IMG/VR virus record: IMGVR_UViG_3300035212_000241
Location: 1-63,594 of that record
Strand: one strand, 5' to 3'
DNA: 63,594 bases
DNA from: a virus
The translations under genes and the position numbers were made by a program. Shown in pieces: positions 18,870 through 52,527 of the stretch. Below the pieces are notes generated by a model, which saw only the letters and a program-made list of their open reading frames with translations, did not search any database and was not told the DNA's origin. The first letter of the stretch is position 1; every line of letters begins with the position of its first letter.

Positions 18870-21800
18870 ATGGACGAACAATATATCTTAGACCTATTTA
18901 ATCAATTAGGCGGAGAGTCAAAATTTGGAAAATTTGATGACTTTAAAGAATTGATTACAACTGATAATTCTTATCAGCAAGATTTTTATAATGCTTTTGG
19001 TGCTAATACATTAGGTGAATTTAATGATTTCAAGTCATTAGTATCCGCTACTCAACAGCCCGAGCAACAACCTGTCGTGCAGCCTACTGTTAAAAAAAAA
19101 GACGATATGGATTCGGATTGGTTATTCGGGGATGGTTCATCGGAATCGGAGCCTTCGAAGACTGAGTCAGAGGCTGGCCTATTTGGTAGATTAGCACAAA
19201 AGGCATTTAGCACAAAGCAGCCGCAGCAGGAGCAAGTTGAACCAATAAAAAGGCCTGAAACCGTAGAAGAGGCATCAGGAACATGGGGGAACAGGGCAAA
19301 GAAAGAACAGCCGTTTTCTGAGCCGTTGTCTGACTATATGCAGGTATATGGTCCAAAAAAAGGAGAAGGAGTACTTGCTCCTACAAAGCCACTTGACTTT
19401 GTGGGTAGGATGACTCCTGAGTTAGTGAAAGAGCGAACACCTAAGTTCCTCGAAGATGGATTAAATGCTTTGACACCAAAGCAATTGGCATCATATGGAG
19501 CTAAAGGAGCGAAGGAAACATTTGACTACTATTTCAAGGATGCAGGATTTAAATTTGAGACCGATAGAGAATATGTAAGGGCCATATCGCCTGATGGTAA
19601 AGTATATACATACAACACAATTCTTCCTTCAAGAGAATCGCTTGACGAGTTTAAAAACTTTGTCAGAGAAAGTGCATTTAATAATCCTGAGATAGCTGAC
19701 AAGGCATACCTCTACGAGAAGGAGAATAAGAAATTCAAAACCAAGGAAGAGATTAACAACGAGGTAAAAACCATCAATGCTCAAGAAGAGGGATTTATGG
19801 GTGACTATAAAAAATTCCTCAACCTTCAAAGGGATATTAACGAGATAGAGGCTGACTTAAAAAGATTTAGAGATTCTGGTGAGCAGAATACACCAAAGTA
19901 TATTCAGACTGAGGCATACTTAAATGAGAGAAAGAAAGAACTTCAGGATTATGCCGGTACAATGGACAGTAAGCTAGTTGACTTGAAAGCCCAACGAACT
20001 CAGCTCGACAAAGCTGTTGGTAAGTACACTGAGTTCCAGGCTACCCAAGGTGACTTTGGTGGTAATATATACAGGACAATTGCTAATACTACATCAGGTA
20101 TATTCTCTAATTATTTGCGATTGGCTGTAACCAAAAGCGTTGACTTTATGCCCTTGAGTAGCGTCATGGGGGAAGAAGCTTACCAAGCCGCGCTAGACAA
20201 AAAGCTAAAAGAAAAAGGATATGAAGGTAATGTAGTACCTATAGATGTATTAAAAGAAGCAAAGGCAGAAATAGAGGCAGAAATTGGATCTAAAGCAAGA
20301 GATGATTTCAAAAAGGCAGCAATAACAGGTAAATATCAAGGGGAACAACTTAATAATGTACTTACGGTAAATGGTGTCAGAGAGTCGTTATCAGAGTTTA
20401 TGAATAAACCAATAACAAGCACTAAAGAATATTTACAAGAAAGACAAGAAAAAGGCAGTTTCATTGAAAGAGGACTATTGGGTTTTGCTGGATCATTACC
20501 TGCTATGGTAGGAGGTCCAGCATTGAGGTATATGAATATGTTCATGATGACAACCGATGGTGCCTTGCAAGAGATGGACAATAACCCTAACTTTGCAGAC
20601 GTAAGCGAGAATGAGAAGGAACTAGTAGCGTTACCAATTGGTGTCGTAGGCGCTGTATTGGAAGAGTTTGGTTTGAAAAATCTAAAGCTAGGTAAATCAA
20701 TTACGTCAAGTATATTAAAAACAGTACTTGGCAGAGTACCAGCAAATGCTACAGCATCAACCATAAGGAAGACTACATTTGATGTATTGGCAGAGAGGGG
20801 AATAAGGGCAGGTACTGCTTATGCAGGTGGTATTCTTTCAGAGATGGAGACAGGTCTTTTACAGCAAGCAAACGATTATGCTGTAAAGGATATCTATAGT
20901 GCTATGAGAGGAAAGAAGATGTTTGATAATCCTGCTTTTCTTACTGGTCAATATTTATATGATTTGTGGGATGCATCAAGGACTGAGGGAGTTGGTGCAG
21001 GTGTCATGAGTGTTCCGTATTCAATAGCAGCTGCATATCAAAAAGATGGCTTTCAAGCATTGGACGATGCGACATTTAAAATATTTGAGGACTTAGCCAA
21101 GGACAATGACAGCAGAAAGTTCTTTGTCACAAGTCTAAAGAATAAAATAAATCTTGGTGAGGTTACGCCTACGCAAGGTAAGCAGATGCTTGAGGCATAT
21201 GACCAAGCGTCCGGTATGATAGGCATGGTCCCTGATGAGATTACTGACCCTGAGAGCAGGAAGGTAGCGATGGACTTAATGAGCGAAAGAATAAGACTTG
21301 AGAAGCAGAAATACGGTAAAGATGAGGCATTGGCTAAGCCAATCCAGGATAAGATAAATCAGATTAACGAACAACTTACACAACTCACACAAGATGCCAT
21401 TCAAAAGCAAGCAGCAAGTCAAGTATCTCTACAGCCAGAAGCCGGAGCTGGCCAAGAAGTGGAGGTCGGAGGCCCCGAAGCAGGACCTCAAGCAGCTCCC
21501 AAGCAAGGTGTCCTCAGCCCCGAAGAAGAAGAAAAGTTAAGGAATAATAGAAGAGTTGATTTATTCCCTGAAGAATCTGAATTTGCAGATGTAATTGGAG
21601 GGTCAGGAAGAAATTCTTCCTTGTCAAATTACAGTGAGGTAAATGGTGTTGGTGTTGCATCATATACCAATCCTGACAATGGTCTTGTTGATGTTATCAT
21701 GTCCGGAACATCTGACAATGACTATGTCGGATATGTAAGGGTATATGAGAATGGGAAGCCAACTAATAGATGGACTTCAAAGATGTCCAATGAATCTGGC

Positions 21801-24800
21801 AATAAAGAGAACTTTAAAACGATGATTTCAGAGGTTCAATCAAGACTTCCTGAGAATCACGAATACACTGAAAGTACAAACATATCTATTGATGGCGTTA
21901 GAGTTTATTCTAATCAGCTAAATAGAGGTTATGAGGTACTTACAGATGCAAATGGAAATCCTGTAACAAATACAGTTACGCTTAACGCAGCTAGCGTAGA
22001 AGGTCTTCAGCAGGCAGCAACACAAGAGGAGAAGCAATCTCTTTATGATAACATGACTGTCACTACGAGAGAGCAATTTAATGCGCTTAGAGACAAGATA
22101 ACAGCTTTAATGCCAAATGCTAGGGTGCTTTGGAATCAAGCAAATAACACTGTACAGATACAACTACCTGTTCTTGTTCAATCAAAAAAAGCTACTGCTG
22201 CTGAGACAACGCCTGCGCAAAAAACATTTGAGCAGAGAAAATCAGAAATTGAAAAGATAACTGACCCTGAGCAAAGAAAAGTTGCTGAGATAGAATTTAT
22301 AATGTCGAATCTTATGTCAGGAGTAGGTGAGGCATCTGCTAATAAAATAAGAGAATATGCTGACAGGATAATATCAGGCAAAGAAACAAGAGATCAAGTA
22401 ATTCAAGGTCTTCCAAAATCATTTGTGGATGGCATAGACCAATTACTTGCTGCACAGCAAGCTCCTACCGAGACTACTGCTACTGCTACTCCAACTGCTA
22501 CTGAGGCAACTCCTGTCGAGCAGTTTACTGAGCAGGACAGAGCGAGAAAGGCTGAGCTGGAGGAGGCAATGAGAAAGGCTGACAAGAGGAGAAAGAATAT
22601 CACAGTAGGCGAGACGACAATGCCAAAGGCAGAGGCTAAGGCTGAGCTTGATGCACTCAATCAGAAGGAGCAGGCAGTTATTGAGGCAGAGGTACAAGCT
22701 ATTGAAAAACTAATATCAGCTCCTGAACAAAAAGATAAAGGTAAGATAAAGCAGGCAGTTACAAATGCAGCAAAAGCAATTGCTAAGATACTTCCTAAAA
22801 CAAAAATTGTCATCCATGAAACAAATGATGACTATGTAAATGCTACCGGAGATACTGATGGTGCCTCTGGAATTTATATACCAAGTGCAGAAGGTGGTAC
22901 TATTCATGTAAACCTATCTAATGCCAATACAAGGACAGTAGGGCATGAGGTCTTCCATGCTATATTACTCAGAGGTATCAAGACAGATGCTGAGGCACAG
23001 AGGTTAGCAAAGGCAATGATAGGAGCTGTAGCTAAGTCATTAAAACAATCAGGAGCAAATCAAGAGTTACTAAATGAGCTTGAAGATTTCTTGTCTAACT
23101 ACGAGGAGAATATTCAAAATGAGGAATACTTAGCCGAGGTGTTTGGATATCTTGCTGATGGATATCCACAGTTAGATGTTCCTGCACAAAGTATTATCAA
23201 TAGATTCATTGAGAGGATAATGAAACTGTTTGGTTTAAAACCAATGACAGACAAAGAGGTTATTGACTTTATGAATACCCTATCAAGGAAGGTAGCTGCC
23301 GGTGAGGAGATAACTGAGAAAGAAGTAGGCATTACAAAAAAGACTAAAGGCATATCATCAAGGCAACAAAAAGATAATAATACCGTTAATAAAGAAGTAT
23401 CTAACACCGAAAAGAAACAATCTACTATAGATAAGTTTTTAAGTTGGTTTAAAAAGGATAACAAAGATACAAAAACTGAATTATTACCTAAAAATAAAGA
23501 CGAAAATGAAGGACTACTTAACAGACTATCACAAGAAGAAGAACGAGGAAGGGAGTCTTCTTCTTCAGCAAATGTTAGCGCAACCATTGTCGCAGAAGGA
23601 GTGCATAGAGCAAATTCAAGAAAGAGCGCTAAGGAGATTAAAAAACAAGAAGAAATAGAATTAGAGGCTCACGCTAAAGAGAGTGGCTTTTGGATAGACC
23701 CTAGTGAATTTGAAAATAAGGAGCCTCATGGCCAAGGTGCGGAATCTGATGTATTCGTAAGTAATGATGGAACTTATGTAACAAAAATAAAAGCAAACGA
23801 TTTACACTATTCAAGTTGGTTGGACTTTCTTGACAGCATCGCGCTGCACAATAGCTTCGAACATAATGCAAGGTATATACTAAAGGGGTTTACTAAGTAT
23901 AAAAATAAATTTAGAGCTGTTTTAGAACAGCCATTCATAAGAAATTCTAGAGAGGCTACTCGTAAAGAAATTGATGAAGATCTATTAAAAAAAGGATTTA
24001 AGTCAAGGGGATTGGGTGTTTATATAAATGATAACACAGGTGTATTTGTAGGCGACTTATTACAAGAGACTGGGAATGCATTGATTGTAGATGATGTTAT
24101 TTTTTACATAGACCCGATAATAAAGCCAAATACTTACTCTTTAGGATTTAATGGAAAGAGAAAAGTATCTCTATCATCTCGTCAGCAGAAAGTAAATAAA
24201 GAGGTTCAAGATATTGAACAGTTACCGGCTGCAAGGAAGCAGATTATAGGTGAAAATGCTAAATTAGCTCAAGAAGTGCGTGACAACTTGCAAGTTGCAA
24301 GAAACATGGAAACGGCAGGTAAAGACGCTAAGACTATTCGTATCACTACTGGATGGGAAAAAGGCAAGGATAACAAGTGGAGGTATGAGATAGATGATGC
24401 GGATGTCGATGAAGTTGAATTAGCCGATATGTGGGAAGATGGGGTAGAAAGTAATTTAGAAAATCTATTATTAGATTCTGAATTATTAAAATTATATCCT
24501 CAGCTTAAAGATATAAAAATTAAATATACAGAATATGGAAAAGTAGCAAATTATGATGACAATAAAAATAAAATAAGCATACCAAGGGATTATGGATATG
24601 ATACACGATTTAAATCAGTATTACTTCACGAAATCCAACACGCTATACAAGTTATAGAGGGGTTTGCTCTAGGAGGAAGCCCTGAGCAAATGATAACGCC
24701 TAATGATGTTTTAGCACAACTTGTTAGAGAATTACCTAACACAGATAGGGAGCAAAGAAGAAAAATAAAAGAAGCTTATCAACAAGAAGGGCTAACTAGA

Positions 24801-27800
24801 TTTCCTATTTTCCCTACAGTTTTTGATATTCAGTCGGATAGTCCTGACAAATTAGACGACTTTATTGAAAAACTTGAAATTTTAACTAAACTTTTCCCAA
24901 ATGTAGATTCTTATAAAAAACTACAAGAAGGTTTAGAAATCCGGTTAATGGAAATGGGGGGAGGAGATATTTCTTTTGAAAAATATCAAAAAATAGCAGG
25001 AGAAGTAGAAGCTCGTAACGTACAAACCAGAATGGATATGACTCCTGAGCAAAGGAGACAAACTACACTACAAGAGACTGAAGATGTTGCAAGAGAAGAT
25101 CAAGTAATATTTTTTGATACTAATTTATCACCTCGTCAGCAGAAATCTAAGAATAACCAAGAAATTATAAAACAAGCAAGGGCTAATGGTAAATCAGAAG
25201 CAGGTATAAGAGCATACTTTAAGAAGAATGGCTTGTCTGATATTGAAATAGATATACTGTTTGACGAAGAAAAAGGAGCAGGCAAAAAAATTAGTCTTAC
25301 CGAAGAGACTCTTCCTGGATACACCAAGTTAATGAACAGAATAAATGACATCATCGCAAGGGGCAGAAGGAAGGGTAAGACTGATGATGATATAATGAAA
25401 GGAGTAATTGCCAATGTTGAGTCAAGGTCTCCTGAGTATGCAAATGCTACTGACCAGCAGCGTGAGCAGATAATCCGTGATATTAGAAAACTGTTTGGCA
25501 AAAAGGAGAAAGCAGCGCCATCTGCCGCTAAAATAACCGGTAAGCCTAAACCAAAGAAGGTTACTGTAGATGAGATGACAGCGCTCAAGGACCAACTAAG
25601 ACTTGAGGCAAGAGCAGCAAGAGAAGCTAAGGGTGACCTCAACGCTAAGCGCAAGATGCTTGCTGCTGCAATCAAGGAGATGAAGAAGAAAGGCAGCATC
25701 TCAGTACGCCAGGCTAAAGCACTTATTAACCGAATAAATGCTGTCAACCTTGACAATCCTGTAATGGTTGAGAGACTACTTACTTATGCTGAGAATATAT
25801 TCAATGATGCTGACTATGACACAAGAGTACAAGAAGTAAGAAAGCTGCAAGAGCAGGTTAAAAAGGTAAACCATGTCTCAATGAGAGATACGGTAAGGGA
25901 ATTTGCGTCGATAAACCCTGAGAGAATACCTGCTGATAAATTGCTTGACTACATCCAGGCATTGGATGACATGAACACAAGGGCACCGTTCTATGAAAAG
26001 ATGAACGATATGTTCGATGAGGTAATGTCATACAGGTCTGAGTCAAAAGAATTTGATGCCATTAAAACATTCCAAGCCCTTATCGACAAGCTTGAGAGTA
26101 TAGCCATCAACCAAGTAAAGAGCGTTGAGGACTATGTCGCTCTTGTCAGAGACATCAACTCATTCAAAAGAAAAGCCTATCAGCTACTGCAAAATGGTGA
26201 CATCACTCAAGACCAATACGACCAAGCCATTGAGAATGTAGGTAAGGACCAAGCTGCTGTCGAGAAGAAATACGAGAAGGAGCTAACTGCGCTAAAGAAG
26301 GGTCTAGTGCAAGAGATAATGGGACTAAGGCCTGAAGTACACCCTGACTTTACACCTGAGGAGGCAGCACTTATCAATAAATATCTTGAGCTTAGTGAGA
26401 GTGATTTAGAGTCACTATCTCCGGAGGACTTATATATCCTCAATGACTTGCTCAATAATATCAAAGAAGATGTTCAGCTTGACTATTACAGGCTAAGCGA
26501 AATCGTGTCAAAAGCATACACTAATGCAGGCGGTCAAAAGCTTGCTGAGCAGTTAAATGAATCTAAATTTAACAAGTCATCAGATGAGGGTAAAAAGTTA
26601 TTACTTGAGCAAGAGTCAGCTTTTTGGGAGGGCCTATTAGGACTTGGCAGAGCCACATCAGGTGCGCTGCAAAAGTTTATAGTGTCACCGTTCAACAGAG
26701 CCATTGCATCTTTTGAGAATTTCATGAAAGATGGGTATAGTGAGTTTTCAAAGCTCAAGAAAAAGTATAGAATGAAAGACTATAATATGCACCGCTTGGG
26801 CGTATTTACCACCTACCTTCAAGAGTATATGGCGCAATTTGACCCTGCAAATAAAAATGTTAAAGACATTGGCAAGAGAGATTGGTTTGGAGAGATTCTA
26901 GGAAATGAGGGCATGAGAGATGGGTATAAGTCAGCTAAGCCATCAGCGAAAAGACTTATCGGCATGGGCGATACTGAGCTAAAAACAATTGAGAAAATTT
27001 ATAAGAGTCTTCCCAAAGACGCAAACGGAAAGGTCGACCCAAAAGCTGTTTATGATAGTTTTATGGCCAATGATGGTAAGTTCTTTACCAAGCAAGAGAA
27101 AGCCTTCTTCGATAAGGTTATGGAATGGAAGCAAAAGAACTTGACCACAAAGCAAAAGGCTGCAAATGAAATGAGTGGTATGCCATTCAAGGAAATACCT
27201 TTCCACATGATGAGGGTAAGACTTGATAGAGGCGCAAAGCAAATAAGTCCTAAAGCAGAAGGAGGTGCAGGAAAAGTAAGAATAGAAGCAGGGACCGGTA
27301 AAGAGAGGGCAAAACAAACGGTTGGTCCTATTATGACAAACTTTGAGCAATTATTTACAGAGAACCTTGAGCAGACTGCAAGAAATTACTATCTGCGAGA
27401 GGCCATCAATGATATCAATAACACACTGTCTGTTGCAAAGAAAGGTTTGGATAAAAATAAAACAGGTCTGTTTAATACCATACCAGGGACTATCTCAGAT
27501 GCATTGAACTTTGAATTTGACAAGACAGATAGTCAAGTGATATTCAAAAGTCTATTAGCAGCAAGGGCAGCAGAGACGCTATTTAACCCTATCAGAACAG
27601 CAGTTGAATTGACATCTGCATTTTTATCATATCCATTTAGAGCCAAAACTCCTAAGGGATATAGAGAATTATTTGGAAAGCAGGGTAAAATGAAAAAACT
27701 ACTTGACTTTACAGATAGCCCAATAAGACTTAGAGATAATATCAATAAGGCTATTGACATCAGCGATGGAAGAATAAAGCCTTTGGGTAAATTTGAGAAA

Positions 27801-29261
27801 GCCGTGAACTACTTGTCAGGATTGCCAGAGCGTACAATGCTTATTACCTCATGGATGCCGACATTCAATAATGAGTTCAAGGATATTACAAACGAGAAGT
27901 TTGATATGGATAAGTTCAACTCAAGCGCTGAGTATAGGCAGAAGTATGGCAAGGCAATTAAAGAGGCTGCTGCTGTTGCTGACGCTCAGACTGAGAAGAT
28001 TATCGGATCAACAACAAAGGCAGGAGGAAGACGCGAAATAAGGATAGCTCCAAAGATACTTGCCAATGTAATTGGACTTGAGGGAACTGTTAAGAAAAAC
28101 TCAAGTGCTGGACAGATACTTGGCTTCTTTAGCAACTACCCATACAGAGAGGTCACTGAGTTCCTAAATGGTTTCAGAGAGGCTGCTGAGGTGTATAAAC
28201 AAGGAGGAAAGATAAAGTCAATTAGCCAATTACAAAAACCACTTGGTGTTGTAATAAACTTAGCTGCTTATGGCTTCTTATCGTCAGTTGTTTATGCTAT
28301 GAAACTTATGCTACTCGGTGATGATGAGGACGAGGAGAAAGGAGAAGCTATGCTAAAAGAGCTGATGACACCAAAGGGATTTATGGATGAGTTACAGGGG
28401 AACGCAATATCATTAGGTGCAAGCAAGTATGCTGCCGGTGGTAAAGCTATGTTGCAAATGTTCGCTACCATTGCTTACAACTCAACGAGCGATAAAGAGC
28501 AGAAAGCAAGAATCAAAAAGATTTTAAAGAATAGCGTATTCGTTGAGCCAATAGATGCTGAGAAAGTTCAAGGCTATGGTGGCAAAAATGAGCTGCTCGG
28601 TGCAATATCATCATATGTTCCTCAGGTTGTTTTATTCGCAAAAAGGATTGAGGAAACTATACAGACAGCTGGTGAGCTTAATTACATCTACAAGAAATTC
28701 CAAGATGGTGGCTTGAAGGCTTTGTCTGAGGATGAAGGCTTGGCAATATTAGCCATTGATGGTTTATTAAAAACAACACAAACTGTATTCAATTTTACCG
28801 GAACATCTCTACCAATGTACAACGACATAAAGATGTACATGAAAGGTGCCAAGAAAGAGGCAGGTGTTGGTAATATAAAACTTTCAGCCACTGAGAATCA
28901 GCACAAGAAAGCATTGCAGAATTATAAAAACGAGAAAGAGTTCAAGGAGAATGACCCTGAAGGATACCTTAAAGCTATTGACGAAGGTGGTTCACTTTAT
29001 GAGTATAAATTAGAGCAGAGCAAAAAAGAAGAAGAGGCAAATAAGGACAAGCCATTCAGAGGTATGAGCGAAGAAGCTTTCAAGAAAAAGTATCCAGAAG
29101 AATACATAGAGAAATATGGCCCAGATACTGAGTACTATGAAGAACAAAGAACTCCTGAGGCTATTGAGAAAAGAGCCGAAATGAGAGCGTTGCAGAAAAA
29201 AGAAAATGCAATAAAAGCAAAGAATAAAAAGAAACGTAATGAAAGAGATAAAGAGGAGTAA
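18870..29261 (+). CDS. Giant polyvalent virion protein with zincin and kinase-like domains
   Basis: This 3463-residue protein fills 16% of the genome and is probably packaged and ejected into the host. Visible parts: an N-terminal tandem motif (residues 1-60, GKFDDFKELI / GEFNDFKSLV); a first zincin-like domain with HEVFH at 1359-1363 and a possible third ligand Glu1423; a kinase-like PolyVal domain about 1590-1755 (GQGAESDVFVSN loop at 1621, D1748 in FYIDPI); a second zincin resembling LPD23 about 1825-2060 (HEIQH 1920-1924, GEVEARN at 2044); long helical regions; and a C-terminal hydrophobic segment (VVINLAAYGFLSSVVYAMKL) suited to membrane insertion. S(S/P)RQQK occurs at 1496, 1769 and 2087, exactly between domains. 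Confidence 0.75.
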   Translation: MDEQYILDLFNQLGGESKFGKFDDFKELITTDNSYQQDFYNAFGANTLGEFNDFKSLVSATQQPEQQPVVQPTVKKKDDMDSDWLFGDGSSESEPSKTESEAGLFGRLAQKAFSTKQPQQEQVEPIKRPETVEEASGTWGNRAKKEQPFSEPLSDYMQVYGPKKGEGVLAPTKPLDFVGRMTPELVKERTPKFLEDGLNALTPKQLASYGAKGAKETFDYYFKDAGFKFETDREYVRAISPDGKVYTYNTILPSRESLDEFKNFVRESAFNNPEIADKAYLYEKENKKFKTKEEINNEVKTINAQEEGFMGDYKKFLNLQRDINEIEADLKRFRDSGEQNTPKYIQTEAYLNERKKELQDYAGTMDSKLVDLKAQRTQLDKAVGKYTEFQATQGDFGGNIYRTIANTTSGIFSNYLRLAVTKSVDFMPLSSVMGEEAYQAALDKKLKEKGYEGNVVPIDVLKEAKAEIEAEIGSKARDDFKKAAITGKYQGEQLNNVLTVNGVRESLSEFMNKPITSTKEYLQERQEKGSFIERGLLGFAGSLPAMVGGPALRYMNMFMMTTDGALQEMDNNPNFADVSENEKELVALPIGVVGAVLEEFGLKNLKLGKSITSSILKTVLGRVPANATASTIRKTTFDVLAERGIRAGTAYAGGILSEMETGLLQQANDYAVKDIYSAMRGKKMFDNPAFLTGQYLYDLWDASRTEGVGAGVMSVPYSIAAAYQKDGFQALDDATFKIFEDLAKDNDSRKFFVTSLKNKINLGEVTPTQGKQMLEAYDQASGMIGMVPDEITDPESRKVAMDLMSERIRLEKQKYGKDEALAKPIQDKINQINEQLTQLTQDAIQKQAASQVSLQPEAGAGQEVEVGGPEAGPQAAPKQGVLSPEEEEKLRNNRRVDLFPEESEFADVIGGSGRNSSLSNYSEVNGVGVASYTNPDNGLVDVIMSGTSDNDYVGYVRVYENGKPTNRWTSKMSNESGNKENFKTMISEVQSRLPENHEYTESTNISIDGVRVYSNQLNRGYEVLTDANGNPVTNTVTLNAASVEGLQQAATQEEKQSLYDNMTVTTREQFNALRDKITALMPNARVLWNQANNTVQIQLPVLVQSKKATAAETTPAQKTFEQRKSEIEKITDPEQRKVAEIEFIMSNLMSGVGEASANKIREYADRIISGKETRDQVIQGLPKSFVDGIDQLLAAQQAPTETTATATPTATEATPVEQFTEQDRARKAELEEAMRKADKRRKNITVGETTMPKAEAKAELDALNQKEQAVIEAEVQAIEKLISAPEQKDKGKIKQAVTNAAKAIAKILPKTKIVIHETNDDYVNATGDTDGASGIYIPSAEGGTIHVNLSNANTRTVGHEVFHAILLRGIKTDAEAQRLAKAMIGAVAKSLKQSGANQELLNELEDFLSNYEENIQNEEYLAEVFGYLADGYPQLDVPAQSIINRFIERIMKLFGLKPMTDKEVIDFMNTLSRKVAAGEEITEKEVGITKKTKGISSRQQKDNNTVNKEVSNTEKKQSTIDKFLSWFKKDNKDTKTELLPKNKDENEGLLNRLSQEEERGRESSSSANVSATIVAEGVHRANSRKSAKEIKKQEEIELEAHAKESGFWIDPSEFENKEPHGQGAESDVFVSNDGTYVTKIKANDLHYSSWLDFLDSIALHNSFEHNARYILKGFTKYKNKFRAVLEQPFIRNSREATRKEIDEDLLKKGFKSRGLGVYINDNTGVFVGDLLQETGNALIVDDVIFYIDPIIKPNTYSLGFNGKRKVSLSSRQQKVNKEVQDIEQLPAARKQIIGENAKLAQEVRDNLQVARNMETAGKDAKTIRITTGWEKGKDNKWRYEIDDADVDEVELADMWEDGVESNLENLLLDSELLKLYPQLKDIKIKYTEYGKVANYDDNKNKISIPRDYGYDTRFKSVLLHEIQHAIQVIEGFALGGSPEQMITPNDVLAQLVRELPNTDREQRRKIKEAYQQEGLTRFPIFPTVFDIQSDSPDKLDDFIEKLEILTKLFPNVDSYKKLQEGLEIRLMEMGGGDISFEKYQKIAGEVEARNVQTRMDMTPEQRRQTTLQETEDVAREDQVIFFDTNLSPRQQKSKNNQEIIKQARANGKSEAGIRAYFKKNGLSDIEIDILFDEEKGAGKKISLTEETLPGYTKLMNRINDIIARGRRKGKTDDDIMKGVIANVESRSPEYANATDQQREQIIRDIRKLFGKKEKAAPSAAKITGKPKPKKVTVDEMTALKDQLRLEARAAREAKGDLNAKRKMLAAAIKEMKKKGSISVRQAKALINRINAVNLDNPVMVERLLTYAENIFNDADYDTRVQEVRKLQEQVKKVNHVSMRDTVREFASINPERIPADKLLDYIQALDDMNTRAPFYEKMNDMFDEVMSYRSESKEFDAIKTFQALIDKLESIAINQVKSVEDYVALVRDINSFKRKAYQLLQNGDITQDQYDQAIENVGKDQAAVEKKYEKELTALKKGLVQEIMGLRPEVHPDFTPEEAALINKYLELSESDLESLSPEDLYILNDLLNNIKEDVQLDYYRLSEIVSKAYTNAGGQKLAEQLNESKFNKSSDEGKKLLLEQESAFWEGLLGLGRATSGALQKFIVSPFNRAIASFENFMKDGYSEFSKLKKKYRMKDYNMHRLGVFTTYLQEYMAQFDPANKNVKDIGKRDWFGEILGNEGMRDGYKSAKPSAKRLIGMGDTELKTIEKIYKSLPKDANGKVDPKAVYDSFMANDGKFFTKQEKAFFDKVMEWKQKNLTTKQKAANEMSGMPFKEIPFHMMRVRLDRGAKQISPKAEGGAGKVRIEAGTGKERAKQTVGPIMTNFEQLFTENLEQTARNYYLREAINDINNTLSVAKKGLDKNKTGLFNTIPGTISDALNFEFDKTDSQVIFKSLLAARAAETLFNPIRTAVELTSAFLSYPFRAKTPKGYRELFGKQGKMKKLLDFTDSPIRLRDNINKAIDISDGRIKPLGKFEKAVNYLSGLPERTMLITSWMPTFNNEFKDITNEKFDMDKFNSSAEYRQKYGKAIKEAAAVADAQTEKIIGSTTKAGGRREIRIAPKILANVIGLEGTVKKNSSAGQILGFFSNYPYREVTEFLNGFREAAEVYKQGGKIKSISQLQKPLGVVINLAAYGFLSSVVYAMKLMLLGDDEDEEKGEAMLKELMTPKGFMDELQGNAISLGASKYAAGGKAMLQMFATIAYNSTSDKEQKARIKKILKNSVFVEPIDAEKVQGYGGKNELLGAISSYVPQVVLFAKRIEETIQTAGELNYIYKKFQDGGLKALSEDEGLAILAIDGLLKTTQTVFNFTGTSLPMYNDIKMYMKGAKKEAGVGNIKLSATENQHKKALQNYKNEKEFKENDPEGYLKAIDEGGSLYEYKLEQSKKEEEANKDKPFRGMSEEAFKKKYPEEYIEKYGPDTEYYEEQRTPEAIEKRAEMRALQKKENAIKAKNKKKRNERDKEE

Positions 29262-29816: not shown

Positions 29817-29932
29817 TAGTCAGGACAGGATTCGAACCTGTATCTTTCGGCAAGACTTAACGTATATTCTTAGGTCATGACTCCTTACCTTTTACCGCTC
29901 ACCGAATGCTTTACCAATTTCACCACCTGACT
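29817..29932 (-). tRNA. tRNA-like RNA with a 51-nt anticodon-loop region
   Basis: Read on the minus strand, a 7-bp acceptor stem (AGTCAGG with CCTGACT), a D-arm whose loop contains TTGGTAAA, a perfect 5-bp anticodon stem (TTCGG with CCGAA, 29902-29906 and 29846-29850) and a perfect 5-bp T-arm with loop TTCGAAT are all present. Between the anticodon-stem strands are 51 nt (29851-29901) where 7 are normal, so the anticodon cannot be assigned. The insert contains AGGT...ACCT and GTCATGAC inverted repeats. No 3' CCA is encoded. It may be an intron-bearing tRNA, a disrupted tRNA, or a tRNA mimic. Confidence 0.6.
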
Positions 29933-32249: not shown

Positions 32250-32996
32250 TTAATCTATATTACAAAAACATTCAATGTCATTATCGAACAAATTTAATTG
32301 TTCTTTTGACATTTTTAGTAATTCACTTACTGAATAGTTTTTATTAAAAGTTGAACCTATAAAATCTTCCATTTTAATCCACCAATCTGCAATTTGTGGC
32401 ATTTCTTTTAAAATATTTTGTTTTTTACTAATTTTTTTATGAAAACACAAATCACAGTTACCTAAATGTGTATGTATATTTAAATCAAAAGGATGCTGTT
32501 TCCAAAATTCTTTAATATGATTTTCCGTTATATTGTCCTTGTATAATGGCATTACATTTTCCCATTTATTCCTATTAGAACTTTTTAATTTAAAATATCT
32601 TTTAGGCTCATCTTTTCGGATTCCTAACATCATATCAACATCATCTAAATTTACACTCTTAGATTTTAAATACCTTTGAATTGTTTTTATTTTTAATTGC
32701 AAAGTACAAGTTCGTGTCATTTCATTAGGTATAAACTTAGACTTTTTAATAAGCTGCTCAAATGGTTTGCCATCTCTATTTGCTGTTTCAAAATTTACAA
32801 CTTTAAATTTTTCTTTGTTATCAGTTGTATATTCAAGCCAGACAATTTCCTTGTCAAAGTATTCGCCACACTTACGAATAAAATCTAAAGTTCCATCTGC
32901 TTCTTTTCCTGTGTTGCAAAATATAGCTAAGTCAAATTCATAATTAGCAAGCATATATGCAGATGTCCTACCACCGCTAAATGATAATACTTTCAT
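32250..32996 (-). CDS. PAPS-reductase-like PP-loop protein
   Basis: This 248-residue protein begins with the PP-loop SGGRTSAYM (residues 7-15), which binds ATP pyrophosphate, and has TRTCTLQLKI (Cys97) and CDLC (181-184), typical of phosphoadenosine-phosphosulfate-reductase-like proteins including those in nucleic-acid thiolation and defence systems. Its DNA is clearly more A/T-rich than the neighbouring helicase and methyltransferase genes, which suggests recent acquisition. It overlaps the helicase stop. A nucleotide or tRNA modification role is possible; sulfate reduction in a phage is less likely. Confidence 0.8.
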   Translation of the reverse strand: MKVLSFSGGRTSAYMLANYEFDLAIFCNTGKEADGTLDFIRKCGEYFDKEIVWLEYTTDNKEKFKVVNFETANRDGKPFEQLIKKSKFIPNEMTRTCTLQLKIKTIQRYLKSKSVNLDDVDMMLGIRKDEPKRYFKLKSSNRNKWENVMPLYKDNITENHIKEFWKQHPFDLNIHTHLGNCDLCFHKKISKKQNILKEMPQIADWWIKMEDFIGSTFNKNYSVSELLKMSKEQLNLFDNDIECFCNID

Positions 32997-34447
32997 ATCA
33001 ATAGTTTTTTGAAGTGTTGCAAAGTATAGTCCATCTTTTTTGTCACTGCATTGTACACGTCATACTCAATGCCTCCCTCTGTAAATATCCAGTACACGTC
33101 ATTGACAAGTCGGTCCTTGGTAGTCATCCTATCCTTGGCTTGCCAATAGCTCGTGGCGCTGAAGTCAATGTTATAAAACACCAGGCAGTCAGCCTCCTTG
33201 AGGGAGATGCCCTCACGTCCGGAGACAATTTGCAGCGCAATGTTTTTATCGGTCTCATTGAACTCGTCTAGCTCTGTAGTAAGACTATCATCAAAGACTT
33301 GTTTGAGGGCATTAAGCTCCTCCTTAAACTTGTAGAAGATGCCAATCTTCTTATCTTTGAAGCAATACTTTATGTACTCAGCCTTGCTTGTGTCAATGAC
33401 CATTGAATTTCCGCTCTCAAATTTAATGGTTCCTGAGCAAAGTTGGTGAACTTTTGACAATAATTTTACTGGAGTATCTGCTAAAATTATTTCTTTCTCA
33501 CCTTGGATGACTAAGTCCTTCTTGAGCTTGTCAATCAACCTATGCGTTGATGGCTTCATAGCCACAGTAAGTATCGTCTCATTCACAGTGCTTGTGAACC
33601 CTGCCTCCTGCTGCGTGAAGTTGATGGTGTATGGGCGCATCTCGTCAAGTATTGTCTCCTTACCTCCAGAATAGTCCTTGATCATCAGTCCGTTTATCTT
33701 GCGCTCAGCGACCTTGACATAGTCATCGCAGAAGCGGTAGAAGTTTTTGTACTGATAAAATGGATTTGTTGGTATGGCATATACCTGGTGGTACATCTGC
33801 GAGTAGCTCTCCGGTGTTGGCGTGCCTGACAGCAGGATGACCTTCGGGTTGCATTTCCTGATGAGGTCTTTAACCTGCTCTGCTCGCTTGCTTGGCTTTG
33901 GAAAAGCTCCCATGCTATGTGCCTCATCGCAGATGATTAAGTCCCATTTGAATAAGTCCATCACGGTATGCAGGCTCTCGTAGTTGATGACCTTGAGCAG
34001 ATATCTCGGCTTGAGCTTTTTGTAGTCATCCTCAATTGAGGTCATTGCCTTTTTCTTGGTGATGAAGAGAACTTTACCGGAGGTGACTTTGTCAGCTATG
34101 CCGAGTGAGGTGAGGGTCTTACCGGTGCGCACCTCCATTGCGAGGTAGATGAACCCATGCCTCTTTAGCTTCTCAGTACCCTCGCTGATGATGTCGAGTT
34201 GGTAGGGCCTGAATTGTACTTGTTCCATTGTGTTTTCCATGAATAGTTTTTTGTAGTGTGTTACGCTATTGATAATCTTGTTGTATTGGATCGGATGTGT
34301 GTCGTACTTATTGACCTGCTCGGTAATGATTGCCTTACCTCTTCCGACTGTACGACTAACCTTGGTATCGACAATCTTTTTTAGCAGCTCGCATCGCTCC
34401 CACATATCAATATCCGATAGGCCTGGCACTCGCTCGATGATACTCAC
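32993..34447 (-). CDS. SNF2/DEAD-like helicase
   Basis: This 484-residue superfamily 2 helicase has Walker A (EVRTGKT, 105-111), DEAH (174-177) and SGTPTP (207-212). The C-terminal domain ends with a motif VI-like region containing YWQAKDRMTTKDR. It is probably a DNA translocase acting in replication or recombination. The GTG start at 34447 overlaps the methyltransferase stop (GTGA), so the pair is coupled. Confidence 0.88.
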   Translation of the reverse strand: MSIIERVPGLSDIDMWERCELLKKIVDTKVSRTVGRGKAIITEQVNKYDTHPIQYNKIINSVTHYKKLFMENTMEQVQFRPYQLDIISEGTEKLKRHGFIYLAMEVRTGKTLTSLGIADKVTSGKVLFITKKKAMTSIEDDYKKLKPRYLLKVINYESLHTVMDLFKWDLIICDEAHSMGAFPKPSKRAEQVKDLIRKCNPKVILLSGTPTPESYSQMYHQVYAIPTNPFYQYKNFYRFCDDYVKVAERKINGLMIKDYSGGKETILDEMRPYTINFTQQEAGFTSTVNETILTVAMKPSTHRLIDKLKKDLVIQGEKEIILADTPVKLLSKVHQLCSGTIKFESGNSMVIDTSKAEYIKYCFKDKKIGIFYKFKEELNALKQVFDDSLTTELDEFNETDKNIALQIVSGREGISLKEADCLVFYNIDFSATSYWQAKDRMTTKDRLVNDVYWIFTEGGIEYDVYNAVTKKMDYTLQHFKKLLI

Positions 34448-35754
34448 AGATTAAGGTTTTTAAGAATCTTATAAAGTACGTTTACGACTATACTATTCCC
34501 TGCTTGTTTATATGCTTGTGAGTCGCTTACAGGCCAAATAAAAGTATCTGGAAAGTCCATAAGGCGAAAGCATTCACGAGGAGTTAGTCTGCGGATTTTA
34601 TAGTCTATACACACTCCATTAGGTTGAGCCGCTCTTATGCAAAATGCTTCTTGATCTTCTTTCCCTAATATAGTTCCATTTTGATAAGCAAAAGTTTTTT
34701 CGCTTTGTCCTATTTGCAATGGCTTTACTATTACATTGTCTTTTTGTACAGTTGTTATTGAATTTGTGTATTCCTCTGAATTTAATTCAAGTGTTTGCTC
34801 ATTGTTTTCTCCTCTACCTCTTATCGCTCCGCAGATAACCCCCTGATTGCATACTGTGTCCAATGTCTGAGCAACTCCTTTGCCGACTCTGCCTCGCCTT
34901 GTTTTGCTTTCGGGAAATTCTAAATTGATGCTGTCCCCTTCCGTTGCTTCCTCGTACCCTTTGGAATTTGCGGATGTGATTTTGATATAATTGTCTTGCA
35001 TAGACCTTTGCATCTTTTTTATCTCGCAAGTGATTGCATTGGCTACCTCTCTGTTGACTACTAAGTTTTCATTACCTTGCCTATCCTTTGAGATGTAACT
35101 AATCATCTTGTCACTCAAGAAAAACTTTTCATCTACCTCACTTTCTAAAACATCTTTGAGCCTTTTTGTCAATACCTCTTCAGTTGGAAAGCGGAAATTA
35201 TTATCTGCATCATCACGGATACCAATTAAAAATACTCGTTCTCGATTTTGTGGTACTCCGTGATGCTTTGCGTTTAGCACTTGCCAGTATAAGTGATAAT
35301 TAACTGAATCATCATAAGGGAACAAAACAGGCGAACCATTAACTGATTTCCCGCCTAACAAATTGACCCACTCCGAAAAAGTTTTACCGCCATTATCAGA
35401 AAGCAATCCTTTGACATTCTCAAAGATAAAAAAACGAGGTTGGTTTACTTGAATAAACTCTAAGCTATTAAAAAATAAAATACCTCTTTTGTCCTCTTTA
35501 CCTAATCTCTTTCCGGCTAAACTGAAAGCTTGGCAAGGCGGTGAGGTCATATAAATGTCAAGACTTTCTGTTGGTATCTCTCGCTCGTAAACATTTGTCG
35601 GATAATAGTCCGGCTCTCCGTAGTTGTGTATAAATGTCTGCCTTGCATACTTGTCCATATCGCAGGCAAAGACTTCCTTGTATTGAATGCCAAGTCTGTT
35701 CAGAGCCTGATTAAAAGCTCCTACTCCGCTAAAATCTGATCCTACTTTTATCAT
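34444..35754 (-). CDS. DNA cytosine-5 methyltransferase
   Basis: This 436-residue enzyme has the C5-methyltransferase motifs in order: SAM-binding DFSGVGAF (residues 7-14), catalytic PPCQ with Cys74, ENV (112-114), a variable target-recognition segment (about 220-370) and C-terminal QAGNSIVVNVL (about 417-427). It probably protects phage DNA from host restriction. No cognate restriction endonuclease is visible beside it, apart from the small VRR-NUC protein. Confidence 0.92.
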   Translation of the reverse strand: MIKVGSDFSGVGAFNQALNRLGIQYKEVFACDMDKYARQTFIHNYGEPDYYPTNVYEREIPTESLDIYMTSPPCQAFSLAGKRLGKEDKRGILFFNSLEFIQVNQPRFFIFENVKGLLSDNGGKTFSEWVNLLGGKSVNGSPVLFPYDDSVNYHLYWQVLNAKHHGVPQNRERVFLIGIRDDADNNFRFPTEEVLTKRLKDVLESEVDEKFFLSDKMISYISKDRQGNENLVVNREVANAITCEIKKMQRSMQDNYIKITSANSKGYEEATEGDSINLEFPESKTRRGRVGKGVAQTLDTVCNQGVICGAIRGRGENNEQTLELNSEEYTNSITTVQKDNVIVKPLQIGQSEKTFAYQNGTILGKEDQEAFCIRAAQPNGVCIDYKIRRLTPRECFRLMDFPDTFIWPVSDSQAYKQAGNSIVVNVLYKILKNLNL

Positions 35755-49165: not shown

Positions 49166-50809
49166 ATGTTTGACAATTCAGGTTACACTCCAAAGGACTT
49201 AGTCTTTGGGGACGAGGGACGCAAGCGATTGATAGATGGCATCAGAAAGATTGCCGCTGCTGTTAAGTCCACTTTAGGCCCAGGGGGCAACACGGTGTTA
49301 ATTGAGTCACCGCATCACACGCATAGCATTACGGTTACCAAGGATGGTGTCACTGTCGCAAAGGCGGTTGACCTGTTTGATCCGGTTGAGAACCTTGCGG
49401 TCAGGATGATGAAAGAGGCAGCTGAGCGTACCGCTACCAATGCAGGGGATGGGACGACCACCTCAATCATTTTGACAGAGGCTATGGTCCTTGAGGGGAC
49501 TAGGCTATTGACACCTGAGGTGAACCGTACTGAGGTGTTGAGACACTTGAGTGTTATGTGCAACGAGGTGGTTAGGCAATTGGCCTCAAAGGCTAAGAAG
49601 GTGACGAACGCAATGCTTGTTGACGTAGCGACAATATCAGCGAATAATGACAGGGAGCTGGGTAAGATTATTGCTGAGCTGTACAGAGAGGTAGGGCGTA
49701 CTGGTATTGTCACTGTTGAGAAGTCGCAGACGAGTGAGACATACTCTGAGACGACTAAGGGTCTCAAGGTAGCAAGGGGCTATCTGTCAAATTTGTTCGT
49801 CAATGACCATAAGAAGGACGAGTGCGTCTTTGAGGATGTGATGGTATTGGTTGCTGACACTGAGATAAGTAATATCTTGCAGATTGAGGCGGTGTTAAAG
49901 CCAATTATATCTGAGAATAAGAAGCTGTTGATCATTGCGCCATGTGGCACCAATGTGGTGAATACGCTTGCGGCTAATGTGGTGAAGGGTAATGTCAAGA
50001 TCTGCGCGGTGCCGCCACCCAATTTTGGGTATAAGCAGCATGAGCTGATGCAGGACATTGCGCTGAGCGTTGGCGCGACATACTTCAGCGAGAAGACCGG
50101 TGACGACTTGTCGCTTATCAACTACGGTGACTTGGGCCATGCTGCCAAGGTCATTGTCTCGGTTGACCAGACAATAATCCTAAAGTCAAATGCGAGGGTT
50201 AAGACTGACGCGGTGGAGGAGAGGGTCAAGCAGCTATGGTCTGCTCATGCCATTGCTAAGCGAAAAGCTGACAAGGACTTCTTGTTGGAGCGCATTGCGT
50301 CACTGACAGGGGGCATTGGTGTCATCTATGTCGGTGGTAATACTGACCTGGAGCAGAAGGAGCTGTATGACCGTGTTGACGATGCTGTCTGTGCGGTGCG
50401 CTCTGCTTTGGAGGAGGGGATATTGCCAGGGGCCGGCAAGGCTATCTACGAGATTGACCATACGAGGTTGTTAGGTGATGGCAATAACCATGACCAGAAT
50501 GTAGCATGGCATATCATGGACGCAGCGCTTGAGGCTCCAATCAGGCAGATACTCACCAATGTGGGGCTTGACTTTGACGCAGTGTATTGCAGGTATGTCC
50601 CTGAGGGTGAGGATATGGTGCCTGATGGGCATGGCTATAATGTCAAGACCGGTGAGTTTGGGGACCTCATCAAGATGGGTGTCGTTGACCCATTGAAAGT
50701 GACTCGAAGTGCGCTGCAAAATGCAGTCAGTGTGGCATCAACTATTTTAAGCACCAATGCTATTATCACGATGGGTCGTAGCTTTGAGATAGCAAATGTA
50801 ACCAAATAA
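49166..50809 (+). CDS. groL: Chaperonin GroEL (Cpn60)
   Basis: This 547-residue protein is a full-length group I chaperonin. The N-terminal equatorial domain has KSTLGPGG (residues 34-41) and GDGTTT (94-99, ATP hydrolysis). The apical and second equatorial domains follow, with RVDDAVCAVRSALEEGILPGAG (Asp406 equals the catalytic aspartate of E. coli GroEL). The Gly/Met C-terminal repeat of bacterial GroEL is absent, as in other phage chaperonins. It probably folds large virion proteins, with the phage GroES gene nearby (52270). It is co-transcribed with the aaRS-like gene. Confidence 0.95.
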   Translation: MFDNSGYTPKDLVFGDEGRKRLIDGIRKIAAAVKSTLGPGGNTVLIESPHHTHSITVTKDGVTVAKAVDLFDPVENLAVRMMKEAAERTATNAGDGTTTSIILTEAMVLEGTRLLTPEVNRTEVLRHLSVMCNEVVRQLASKAKKVTNAMLVDVATISANNDRELGKIIAELYREVGRTGIVTVEKSQTSETYSETTKGLKVARGYLSNLFVNDHKKDECVFEDVMVLVADTEISNILQIEAVLKPIISENKKLLIIAPCGTNVVNTLAANVVKGNVKICAVPPPNFGYKQHELMQDIALSVGATYFSEKTGDDLSLINYGDLGHAAKVIVSVDQTIILKSNARVKTDAVEERVKQLWSAHAIAKRKADKDFLLERIASLTGGIGVIYVGGNTDLEQKELYDRVDDAVCAVRSALEEGILPGAGKAIYEIDHTRLLGDGNNHDQNVAWHIMDAALEAPIRQILTNVGLDFDAVYCRYVPEGEDMVPDGHGYNVKTGEFGDLIKMGVVDPLKVTRSALQNAVSVASTILSTNAIITMGRSFEIANVTK

Positions 50810-50823
50810 ATTTTACTATATCA

Positions 50824-51672
50824 ATGAAACATTCTTTGCATTCGTCTTTCTATCCGCACATTGACGCTAAAAAGTTCACAAAGGTTGTAAAGCTGCTCAG
50901 ACAATTTTTTGACAGCAAGGGTCTCCTTGAGGTGCATACGCAGAACAGGTTGTCAATACTTGCGGCTTGCGAGAATCCGCATAGCATTGCTCAATTCACC
51001 TACAACCACAACATCTATCCGCTACCGCAGACTGGGCAGATGTGGTTAGAGCATGAACTGCTGACACAGCCGGAGGAGAGAGGGTTCTACTGCTTGTCAA
51101 CAAGCTACCGCAATGAGGAGGCACCAATTGAGGGCCGTCACTGTATGATATTCCCGATGTTTGAGTTTGAGTTCCATGGGACGATGACCGAGCTGGCGAT
51201 AGTAGAGACTGAGCTGCTTGAGTTTCTTGGTTTCAAATCTCCTGCTGTCAGAAATTACGAGGACGTATGCGATGAGTATGGTGTCAGCATCATTGAGAAT
51301 GACACAGAGACAAAGCTATACCAAGACGTATCTGACGCAGTATTACTTTGTAACTTTCCGGAGCGCACCAATCCATTTTGGAATATGGAGAGGCATAATG
51401 ACGGAACAGCGAAGAAGATTGACGTAATCCTCTGTGGTCAGGAGACCATCGGTTCTGCTGAGCGCAGCTGCAATCCTGAGCAGATGAAAACGAACTTTTT
51501 CACCATCGAGGGTGGCAAATACGCTGAGAAATTATTTGAGCTATTTGGGTACAGCAGAGTAATATCAGAGCTTGAAGAGTTCTTACAAAATAAATTTATC
51601 CCACGCGTAGGAGCTGGTATTGGCATAACCAGACTTATCAGAGCGATGGAGATAAACAAACTTCTCGATTAG
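50824..51672 (+). CDS. Class II aminoacyl-tRNA-synthetase-like catalytic core
   Basis: This 282-residue protein has class II aaRS motif 2 (TSYRNEEAPIEGRH, Arg96 and Glu98, with F-x-F-E strand at 113-117), an ATP/amino-acid region (CGQETIGSAERS, Glu207) and motif 3 (GAGIGITR, Arg270; the usual Asp/Glu before Arg is Thr). The pattern is closest to the Asp/Asn/Lys branch. There is no N-terminal OB anticodon-binding domain, so it is like EpmA, archaeal AsnA-type or other paralogues that modify proteins or small molecules. It starts 14 nt after GroEL and ends at a terminator. Substrate unknown. Confidence 0.8.
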   Translation: MKHSLHSSFYPHIDAKKFTKVVKLLRQFFDSKGLLEVHTQNRLSILAACENPHSIAQFTYNHNIYPLPQTGQMWLEHELLTQPEERGFYCLSTSYRNEEAPIEGRHCMIFPMFEFEFHGTMTELAIVETELLEFLGFKSPAVRNYEDVCDEYGVSIIENDTETKLYQDVSDAVLLCNFPERTNPFWNMERHNDGTAKKIDVILCGQETIGSAERSCNPEQMKTNFFTIEGGKYAEKLFELFGYSRVISELEEFLQNKFIPRVGAGIGITRLIRAMEINKLLD

Positions 51673-51690
51673 TTTTTTGGTTTTAAAGTG

Positions 51691-51724
51691 AAGGGGGTTG
51701 GGTCAATGCCCAGCCCTTTTTTTT
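51691..51724 (+). terminator. Terminator after the GroEL-aaRS operon
   Basis: GGG-TCAATG-CCC core extended by about five more pairs (51691-51717) followed by eight T residues. Confidence 0.88.
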
Positions 51725-52269: not shown

Positions 52270-52527
52270 ATGCAACCAATAGGCAAATACATAGTGGTCT
52301 CTTCAATTGACGAGGAGATAAAGACAGACTCAGGCATCATCCTCTCAGGAGAAGATGCTAATCAGTTCAGATACCGCAAGGGTAAAGTTGTCAAGCCAGG
52401 TACTGACGTGACTGTAATCAAAGAGGGTGACGTAGTCTATTACGACAAAGGCTATTCGTTCACGATGATCATATCAGGCGAGCAACATACCATCATTCGT
52501 GAAGACCACGTCGTTCTTGTTGAATAG
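52270..52527 (+). CDS. groS: Co-chaperonin GroES (Cpn10)
   Basis: This is 85 residues from the ATG at 52270 (MQPIGKYIVVSSIDEEIKT). It has the GroES beta-barrel order: a mobile-loop segment TDSGIILSGEDANQF (about 19-33), GKVVKPGTD, EGDVVYYDKG and a terminal strand TIIREDHVVLVE. It should cap the phage GroEL ring. Its 3' end overlaps the opposing winged-helix gene by 35 nt, so the two transcripts are antisense there. Confidence 0.88.
   Translation: MQPIGKYIVVSSIDEEIKTDSGIILSGEDANQFRYRKGKVVKPGTDVTVIKEGDVVYYDKGYSFTMIISGEQHTIIREDHVVLVE

Follow-up and report, generated by a model that had tools for sequence, protein, structure and literature searches.

The usual teaching is that pyrimidines are made de novo by six steps, almost universally, beginning with carbamoyl phosphate. 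In this route the three enzymes CarAB, PyrB and PyrC, none of them homologous to the protein described here, supply the dihydroorotate that feeds PyrD. Asparaginyl-tRNA synthetase (AsnRS), a class IIb aminoacyl-tRNA synthetase (aaRS), joins its catalytic domain to an OB-fold anticodon-binding domain. Archaeal asparagine synthetase A (AS-AR; structures 3p8t, 3reu and 1nnh) is an AsnRS-derived metabolic ligase of ~290 aa that has the AsnRS-like core without the anticodon domain, and EpmA/GenX is a class II core standing alone that is Lys-specific and acts on EF-P. Dethiobiotin synthetase (BioD) carries out an ATP-driven ring closure through an N-carboxylate mixed anhydride. Here we describe a phage-encoded protein built on the catalytic core of AsnRS, whose family is probably an unrecognised, AsnRS-derived enzyme of de novo pyrimidine synthesis acting upstream of PyrD.

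The window, that is, the whole stretch of DNA that was analysed, is a 63.6-kb virus record. The features around and within the gene for the aaRS-core enzyme are as follows.

49166..50809, + strand, phage GroEL gene (NF009487, 480 bits)
50824..51672, + strand, aaRS-core enzyme gene (PHROG_29758), 282 aa, ATG start (ORF list, profile matches and predicted structure)
51028..51051, + strand, residues 69-76, QTGQMWLE, AsnRS-type amino-acid loop (profile alignments, 79 sequences)
51085..51171, + strand, motif 2, residues 88-116 (R96, E98, R105, H106, E114 and E116 invariant)
51436..51465, + strand, residues 205-214, GQETIGSAER, counterpart of the AsnRS/AspRS G-E-I-x-G-G-S-x-R segment (R214 invariant)
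51610..51633, + strand, motif 3, residues 263-270, GAGIGITR (Thr269 in place of the usual Asp/Glu)
51690..51721, + strand, intrinsic-terminator-like hairpin of 14 bp with a U-rich tail (U8; -20.7 kcal/mol, z -3.6)
52270..52527, + strand, phage GroES gene, its ORF listed from 52231 (PF00166, 7.7e-11)

The enzyme gene lies on the same strand as groEL and begins after a gap of 14 nt, and groES follows ~600 nt downstream. This spacing, together with the strong terminator behind the enzyme gene, makes a joint transcript with groEL likely, as judged from the DNA sequence. Elsewhere in the window, a single 3463-aa ORF, the largest of the genome, occupies 18870-29261 (+), and a PAPS-reductase-like gene, a SNF2/ResIII helicase and a C5-cytosine methylase stand in tandem at 32250-35754 (-), a row that is possibly a DNA-modification module.

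A sequence-only reading had described the protein encoded at 50824-51672 as a class II aaRS catalytic core that lacks the OB domain and carries Thr in place of the acidic residue of motif 3, and each of these points holds. The Pfam family tRNA-synt_2 (PF00152; the D, K and N class) covers residues 17-275 with an E-value of 4.5e-15, motifs 2 and 3 are present, and the unnamed PHROG_29758 profile, of unknown function, matches residues 13-276 of 282 at 8.4e-100. The NCBIfam matches are all sub-threshold: LysRS, AsnRS (TIGR00457, 20.4 bits against a curated cut-off of 342.6), EpmA (TIGR00462, 24.4 bits against 286.9) and asparagine synthetase A (NF005054, 23.4 bits against 309). An AlphaFold2 model made from a 79-sequence alignment (pLDDT 93.6, pTM 0.91) has human AsnRS with Asn-AMP as its top structural match (8h53; Z 27.4, rmsd 2.5, 252 residues, 21% identity), followed by AspRS and then by AS-AR (Z 24 to 3rex, 3rl6 and 3p8t over 244-249 residues) and EpmA/GenX (Z 24). 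Model residues 1-279 align to residues 227-530 of 8h53, the catalytic domain alone, and the OB-fold anticodon-binding domain is absent. An ordinary tRNA ligase is unlikely, in agreement with the sequence-only reading.

The active site was compared by HMM alignment of 79 sequences from phages, bacteria and archaea. The window protein shares with AsnRS the catalytic-domain fold, motifs 2 and 3, a Q-S/T-x-Q-x-x-L-E loop and the Arg for the side chain. The loop QTGQMWLE aligns opposite QSSQLYLE in solved AsnRS, whereas AspRS has QSPQLYKQ, and GQETIGSAER aligns opposite the AsnRS segment G-E-I-V-G-G-S-M-R. Residues Q69, T70, G71, Q72, L75, E76 and R214 are invariant among the 79 sequences, as are R96, E98, H106, E114, E116 and R270; motif 2 of the window protein reads TSYRNE...GRH..IFPMFEFE. 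Unlike AsnRS, the protein has Ile109 in motif 2 where AsnRS carries Glu, and Thr269 in motif 3; this Thr is shared by 74 of 79 homologs and is therefore a family trait rather than a mutation. Since the catalytic residues are unchanged in all these phage, bacterial and archaeal sequences, the protein does not correspond to a complete aaRS that has lost them, and an inactive remnant was rejected. The fold and the invariant AsnRS-type residues, kept from phages to archaea, make it very likely that the window protein is an active, Asn-binding, ATP-using enzyme without an anticodon-reading domain; from the identity of the pocket residues we infer that asparagine is the substrate.

The family is widespread. 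A first IMG/VR scan returned 496 relatives, and the alignment, used as query, picked out 130 loci in genomes of bacteria and archaea, numbers that exclude a chance occurrence. Cellular carriers include Bacteroidota, many CPR phyla, DPANN archaea, Chlamydiota, Dependentiae, Midichloriaceae (Rickettsiales), Gammaproteobacteria, Myxococcota, Coatesbacteria and Pasteurella atlantica; the gene is also native to Aureispira. Among phages the gene occurs in Prochlorococcus phages P-SSM2, P-SSM5 and P-SSM7 (52-55% identity, annotated 'tRNA ligase'), in huge phages and in hundreds of IMG/VR contigs. No plasmid-borne relatives were found. Phages and cells are intermingled in the tree of the enzyme, the well-supported branches of which force at least five changes between phage and cell.

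GroEL is a neighbour of the aaRS-core enzyme and is not a functional requirement. The sequence-only reading had paired the two; the adjacency in the window stands, but it is a trait of the clade to which the window belongs (10 of 76 phage loci), and GroEL is absent from the neighbour clusters of the cellular loci. GroEL as a functional partner was rejected, there being no link outside the clade and GroEL-GroES occurring without the enzyme in MW202828. That genome, a podovirus (MW202828.1; L177, L178), has a window-like layout, with a P22-like portal, a giant structural gene, GroEL-GroES with no enzyme between them, and a tRNA-like RNA placed much as in the window. In 11 loci of other phage groups (L413-L471) the enzyme is preceded, at a distance of one or two genes, by a gene for full-length Hsp70/DnaK, and nine loci have an FKBP-like isomerase in the vicinity. 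The same adjacency to groEL in the window clade, and the place of EpmA/GenX among the structural neighbours, could be read as signs of an EpmA-like ligase that modifies proteins or lipids, perhaps GroEL or virion proteins. We consider this reading, which for proteins had also been put forward from the sequence, highly improbable: against the EpmA model the protein reaches 24 bits where 287 are required, the pocket is Asn-type and not Lys-type, and the groEL linkage has the narrow distribution just described.

The genomic context of the family, unlike that of AsnRS, is pyrimidine synthesis. When the neighbours at 77 cellular loci were clustered and identified with NCBIfam and Pfam, pyrimidine genes were the dominant association of the enzyme, with PyrF or a PyrE/F fusion nearby in 24 loci and PyrD in 17. 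In Rickettsiales (Midichloriaceae) the operon reads enzyme-PyrF-PyrE-PyrD-PRPP synthetase-transketolase, in Gammaproteobacteria enzyme-PyrE-PyrF, in Parcubacteria PyrD-PyrE-PyrF-lyase-enzyme and in Myxococcota enzyme-PyrEF-PyrD. Bacteroidota (Saprospiraceae) have the arrangement PyrEF/PyrD/enzyme, and on the complete chromosome of Pasteurella atlantica pyrD faces enzyme-PyrF-PRTase. Linkage with pyrD, pyrE or pyrF in several phyla supports a role of the family in the pyrimidine pathway, and the variation of gene order between phyla speaks for a functional link and against inheritance as a single block. Counting against a pyrimidine role, most CPR and DPANN carriers have no pyr gene beside the enzyme.

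The carriers also lack the enzymes that normally make dihydroorotate. In 30 carrier genomes, each with a single detected copy of the aaRS-core enzyme, the carbamoyl-phosphate synthase large subunit CarB was over cut-off in two and aspartate carbamoyltransferase (PyrB) likewise in two, while both were found in 14 of 14 control genomes. Dihydroorotase was surveyed with the class I model PyrC_multi, which was over cut-off in 2 of 30 carriers, compared with 14 of 14 controls matched and 11 of 14 over cut-off. AspRS/AsnRS-class matches were found in all 30 carriers, so the assemblies are not empty. Three genomes are exceptions: G085 (Coatesbacteria) has the enzyme together with PyrB and PyrC and no CarB; in G099, a MAG, PyrB and CarB lie on different contigs and the PyrC frame is interrupted by one stop; and CarB alone is present in G102. 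Because reduced genomes lose pathways, the survey of such genomes would by itself be weak evidence; genomes without CarAB, PyrB and PyrC could be pyrimidine scavengers. The carriers are not phylogenetically independent. The stronger evidence is the complete P. atlantica chromosome and a comparison within one bacterial order of 199 genomes, where PyrB was absent in 8 of 8 carriers and present in 172 of 191 non-carriers (Fisher p = 4.2e-8, uncorrected for kinship; 19 of 191 non-carriers lack PyrB). PyrD was found at E<=1e-15 in 14 of 30 carriers, which counts against the pyrimidine role; divergent PyrDs (E 1e-15 to 1e-22) account for part of the gap, perhaps not all of it.

Asparagine metabolism in the same 30 genomes bears on two further explanations. 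Asparagine synthetase B (AsnB) was over cut-off in 16 carriers; about half are without it, and some of these must therefore take up Asn or work with Asp. In G087, G089, G091, G101, G104, G105 and G106 AsnB is kept and AsnRS is not over cut-off, and other carriers have neither over cut-off. Small genomes with AsnB and no AsnRS over cut-off suggest that free Asn serves a purpose outside translation, which fits the need for Asn in the proposed pathway. The idea that the enzyme takes the place of AsnRS in hosts without one was rejected: canonical AsnRS was over cut-off in 15 of 30 carriers, and there is thus no anticorrelation with the aaRS-core enzyme. The carriers without AsnB would be accommodated by an asparagine synthetase of the AS-AR/AsnA type, which makes asparagine from aspartate, NH3 and ATP, and the protein resembles AS-AR in its size and in the missing OB domain (Z 24, 21% identity). 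However, the sequence match to AS-AR is weak (22.8 bits), the AsnA-related NCBIfam model gives 23 bits where 309 are required, the loop is AsnRS-type (L75 and E76) without the AspRS-type Lys, and the genomic context is different. An asparagine synthetase would moreover be added to genomes that in 16 of 30 cases already have AsnB, and would leave both the clustering with pyrD, pyrE and pyrF and the loss of CarAB, PyrB and PyrC unexplained, and we regard it as very unlikely. The sequence-only reading had offered an AsnA-like maker of an amino-acid derivative as one of three guesses; it came nearest to the evidence, though not as AsnA itself.

Taken together, the AsnRS-type core, the Asn-type pocket, the pyrimidine gene context, the absence of CarB, PyrB and PyrC and the presence of pyrE in carrier phages, described below, leave the pathway role well supported by genomic evidence; the substrates, the product and a one-step chemistry we infer. 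In cells the enzyme would stand in for CarAB, PyrB and PyrC. Nearly all carriers are without carbamoyl phosphate synthase and PyrB, and the enzyme would therefore have to combine a source of nitrogen, one carbon and an amino acid of four carbons. Asparagine brings both nitrogens of the ring as well as the chain of four carbons and wants the carbonyl alone, for which reason adenylation of an N-carboxylate is proposed. The AsnRS-like pocket would bind L-asparagine, the alpha-amine of which would combine with CO2 to form a carbamate; ATP would adenylate the carboxylate of this carbamate, and not that of the amino acid itself; and ring closure by the amide nitrogen of the side chain would give L-dihydroorotate, AMP and PPi. 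The mass balance agrees (Asn, C4H8N2O3, plus CO2 minus H2O equals dihydroorotic acid, C5H6N2O4), and BioD is a precedent for ring closure via an activated carbamate, although its fold is unrelated, its intermediate is a phosphate and not an AMP derivative, and its substrate is another. That a single AsnRS-derived enzyme converts Asn, CO2 and ATP to dihydroorotate in one step is a tentative proposal, to which we give somewhat less than an even chance; at that same strength it would be a route independent of CarAB, PyrB and PyrC in CPR, DPANN, intracellular symbionts, Bacteroidota and many phages. Searches of the literature outside subscription papers and preprints found nothing relevant on such a pathway, on an AsnRS paralog with orotate or on a 'dihydroorotate synthetase'.

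The same pyrimidine role could be filled by other chemistry, either an ATP-dependent cyclisation of carbamoyl-aspartate or a multi-step conversion with an ArgH-like lyase and an amidohydrolase. Two lineages have operons in which these latter genes adjoin the enzyme, namely CPR (L335/L478: pyrE, PRK06886 amidohydrolase, ArgH-like lyase, enzyme) and Bacteroidota (L345: purQ/purL-like genes, amidohydrolase, ArgH-like lyase, enzyme), and both genes would be superfluous for a one-step reaction. They are absent from most of the pyr-linked operons, however, and cyclisation needs a source of N-carbamoyl-aspartate, of which we know none where CarB and PyrB are both missing. Other chemistry is therefore possible and, in our estimate, rather unlikely.

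The pyrimidine role leaves one observation unaccounted for. In marine phages a tRNA-Asn(GUU) of class-II shape, with a long variable arm, follows the enzyme gene, starting 4-9 nt beyond its stop codon (loci L047-L083 and L358; for example, L082 6793-6879). It is 82-107 nt long, with U1-A72, G73 and often an encoded CCA. A tRNA stands directly behind the enzyme in 26 of the 31 marine loci with enough sequence; for one of the 26 it was the neighbouring tRNA-Cys that was picked up, and in L351 a tRNA-Asn lies at a greater distance. These tRNAs are the main support for a different reading, in which the enzyme is a miniature AsnRS, blind to the anticodon, that charges a dedicated tRNA as an orthogonal pair and protects or boosts Asn decoding during infection; the AsnRS-like fold and pocket are in keeping with this. 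Against it, freshwater phages, that of the window among them, have no tRNA behind the enzyme, and neither have the cellular relatives, which are placed in pyr operons; the window genome has no tRNA-Asn. Several of the marine copies have U37, whereas decoding tRNAs typically carry a purine at position 37. Charging of a tRNA predicts neither the loss of CarB, PyrB and PyrC nor the co-occurrence with pyrE, and we judge this reading improbable. On cyanophage tRNA-Asn with an aaRS, searches of the literature outside subscription papers and preprints again found nothing relevant.

The window does encode a tRNA-like RNA of 116 nt at 29817-29932 (-), which matches the Rfam tRNA model with 44.8 bits; its acceptor, D and T arms are intact, and a canonical anticodon arm is lacking. 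RNAs of its class are very abundant in phages, with at least 120 stretches in IMG/VR and several copies in some genomes. The class has fixed ends (AGTCAGG...CCTGACTA / AGTCAGG...CAGGTTCGANTCCTGTCCTGACT, usually A73 then C) around a hypervariable middle of 35-65 nt. Charging of tRNA-like RNAs was another of the three earlier guesses; it keeps a low probability for the marine relatives with their long-arm tRNA-Asn, and for the window's RNA it was rejected: none of 50 phage records of the class carries the enzyme, as searched with a model that recovered 30 of 30 known carriers. Shorter elements were also seen. At L021 6843-6895, a tRNA-like element of ~50 nt with an acceptor stem, one short hairpin and a T arm overlaps the stop codon of the enzyme gene, and in MW202828 (L092 637-697) a similar short element follows a 108-nt tRNA-like RNA.

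The proposed pyrimidine enzyme keeps company with nucleotide genes in phages as well. The Prochlorococcus phages that carry it are exactly P-SSM2, P-SSM5 and P-SSM7 (six records), and against a background of ~440 T4-like records with a capsid >=60% identical to that of P-SSM7, the cyanophage-type PyrE was found in the same six records, in six marine single-cell virus fragments and in one huge phage. In P-SSM2, mazG, purH and a cytidylyltransferase lie within 6 kb upstream of the enzyme gene and purN lies near pyrE; in relatives of the window a MazG-like pyrophosphatase stands between groEL and the enzyme. This neighbourhood fits a nucleotide-supply gene. A 2023 survey placed pyrE among the cyanophage nucleotide genes that rise with depth, and the term 'tRNA ligase' is absent from it (PMC9983427). 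In phages, that of the window included, the enzyme would be an auxiliary metabolic gene feeding host or phage PyrD, PyrE and PyrF.

If this role is correct, hundreds of phages and many little-studied bacteria and archaea that are scored as pyrimidine auxotrophs would be able to make UMP, and the phages would gain a bypass of the host's feedback-inhibited first steps of pyrimidine synthesis. The family would then illustrate clearly how an enzyme of translation can be co-opted for nucleotide metabolism.
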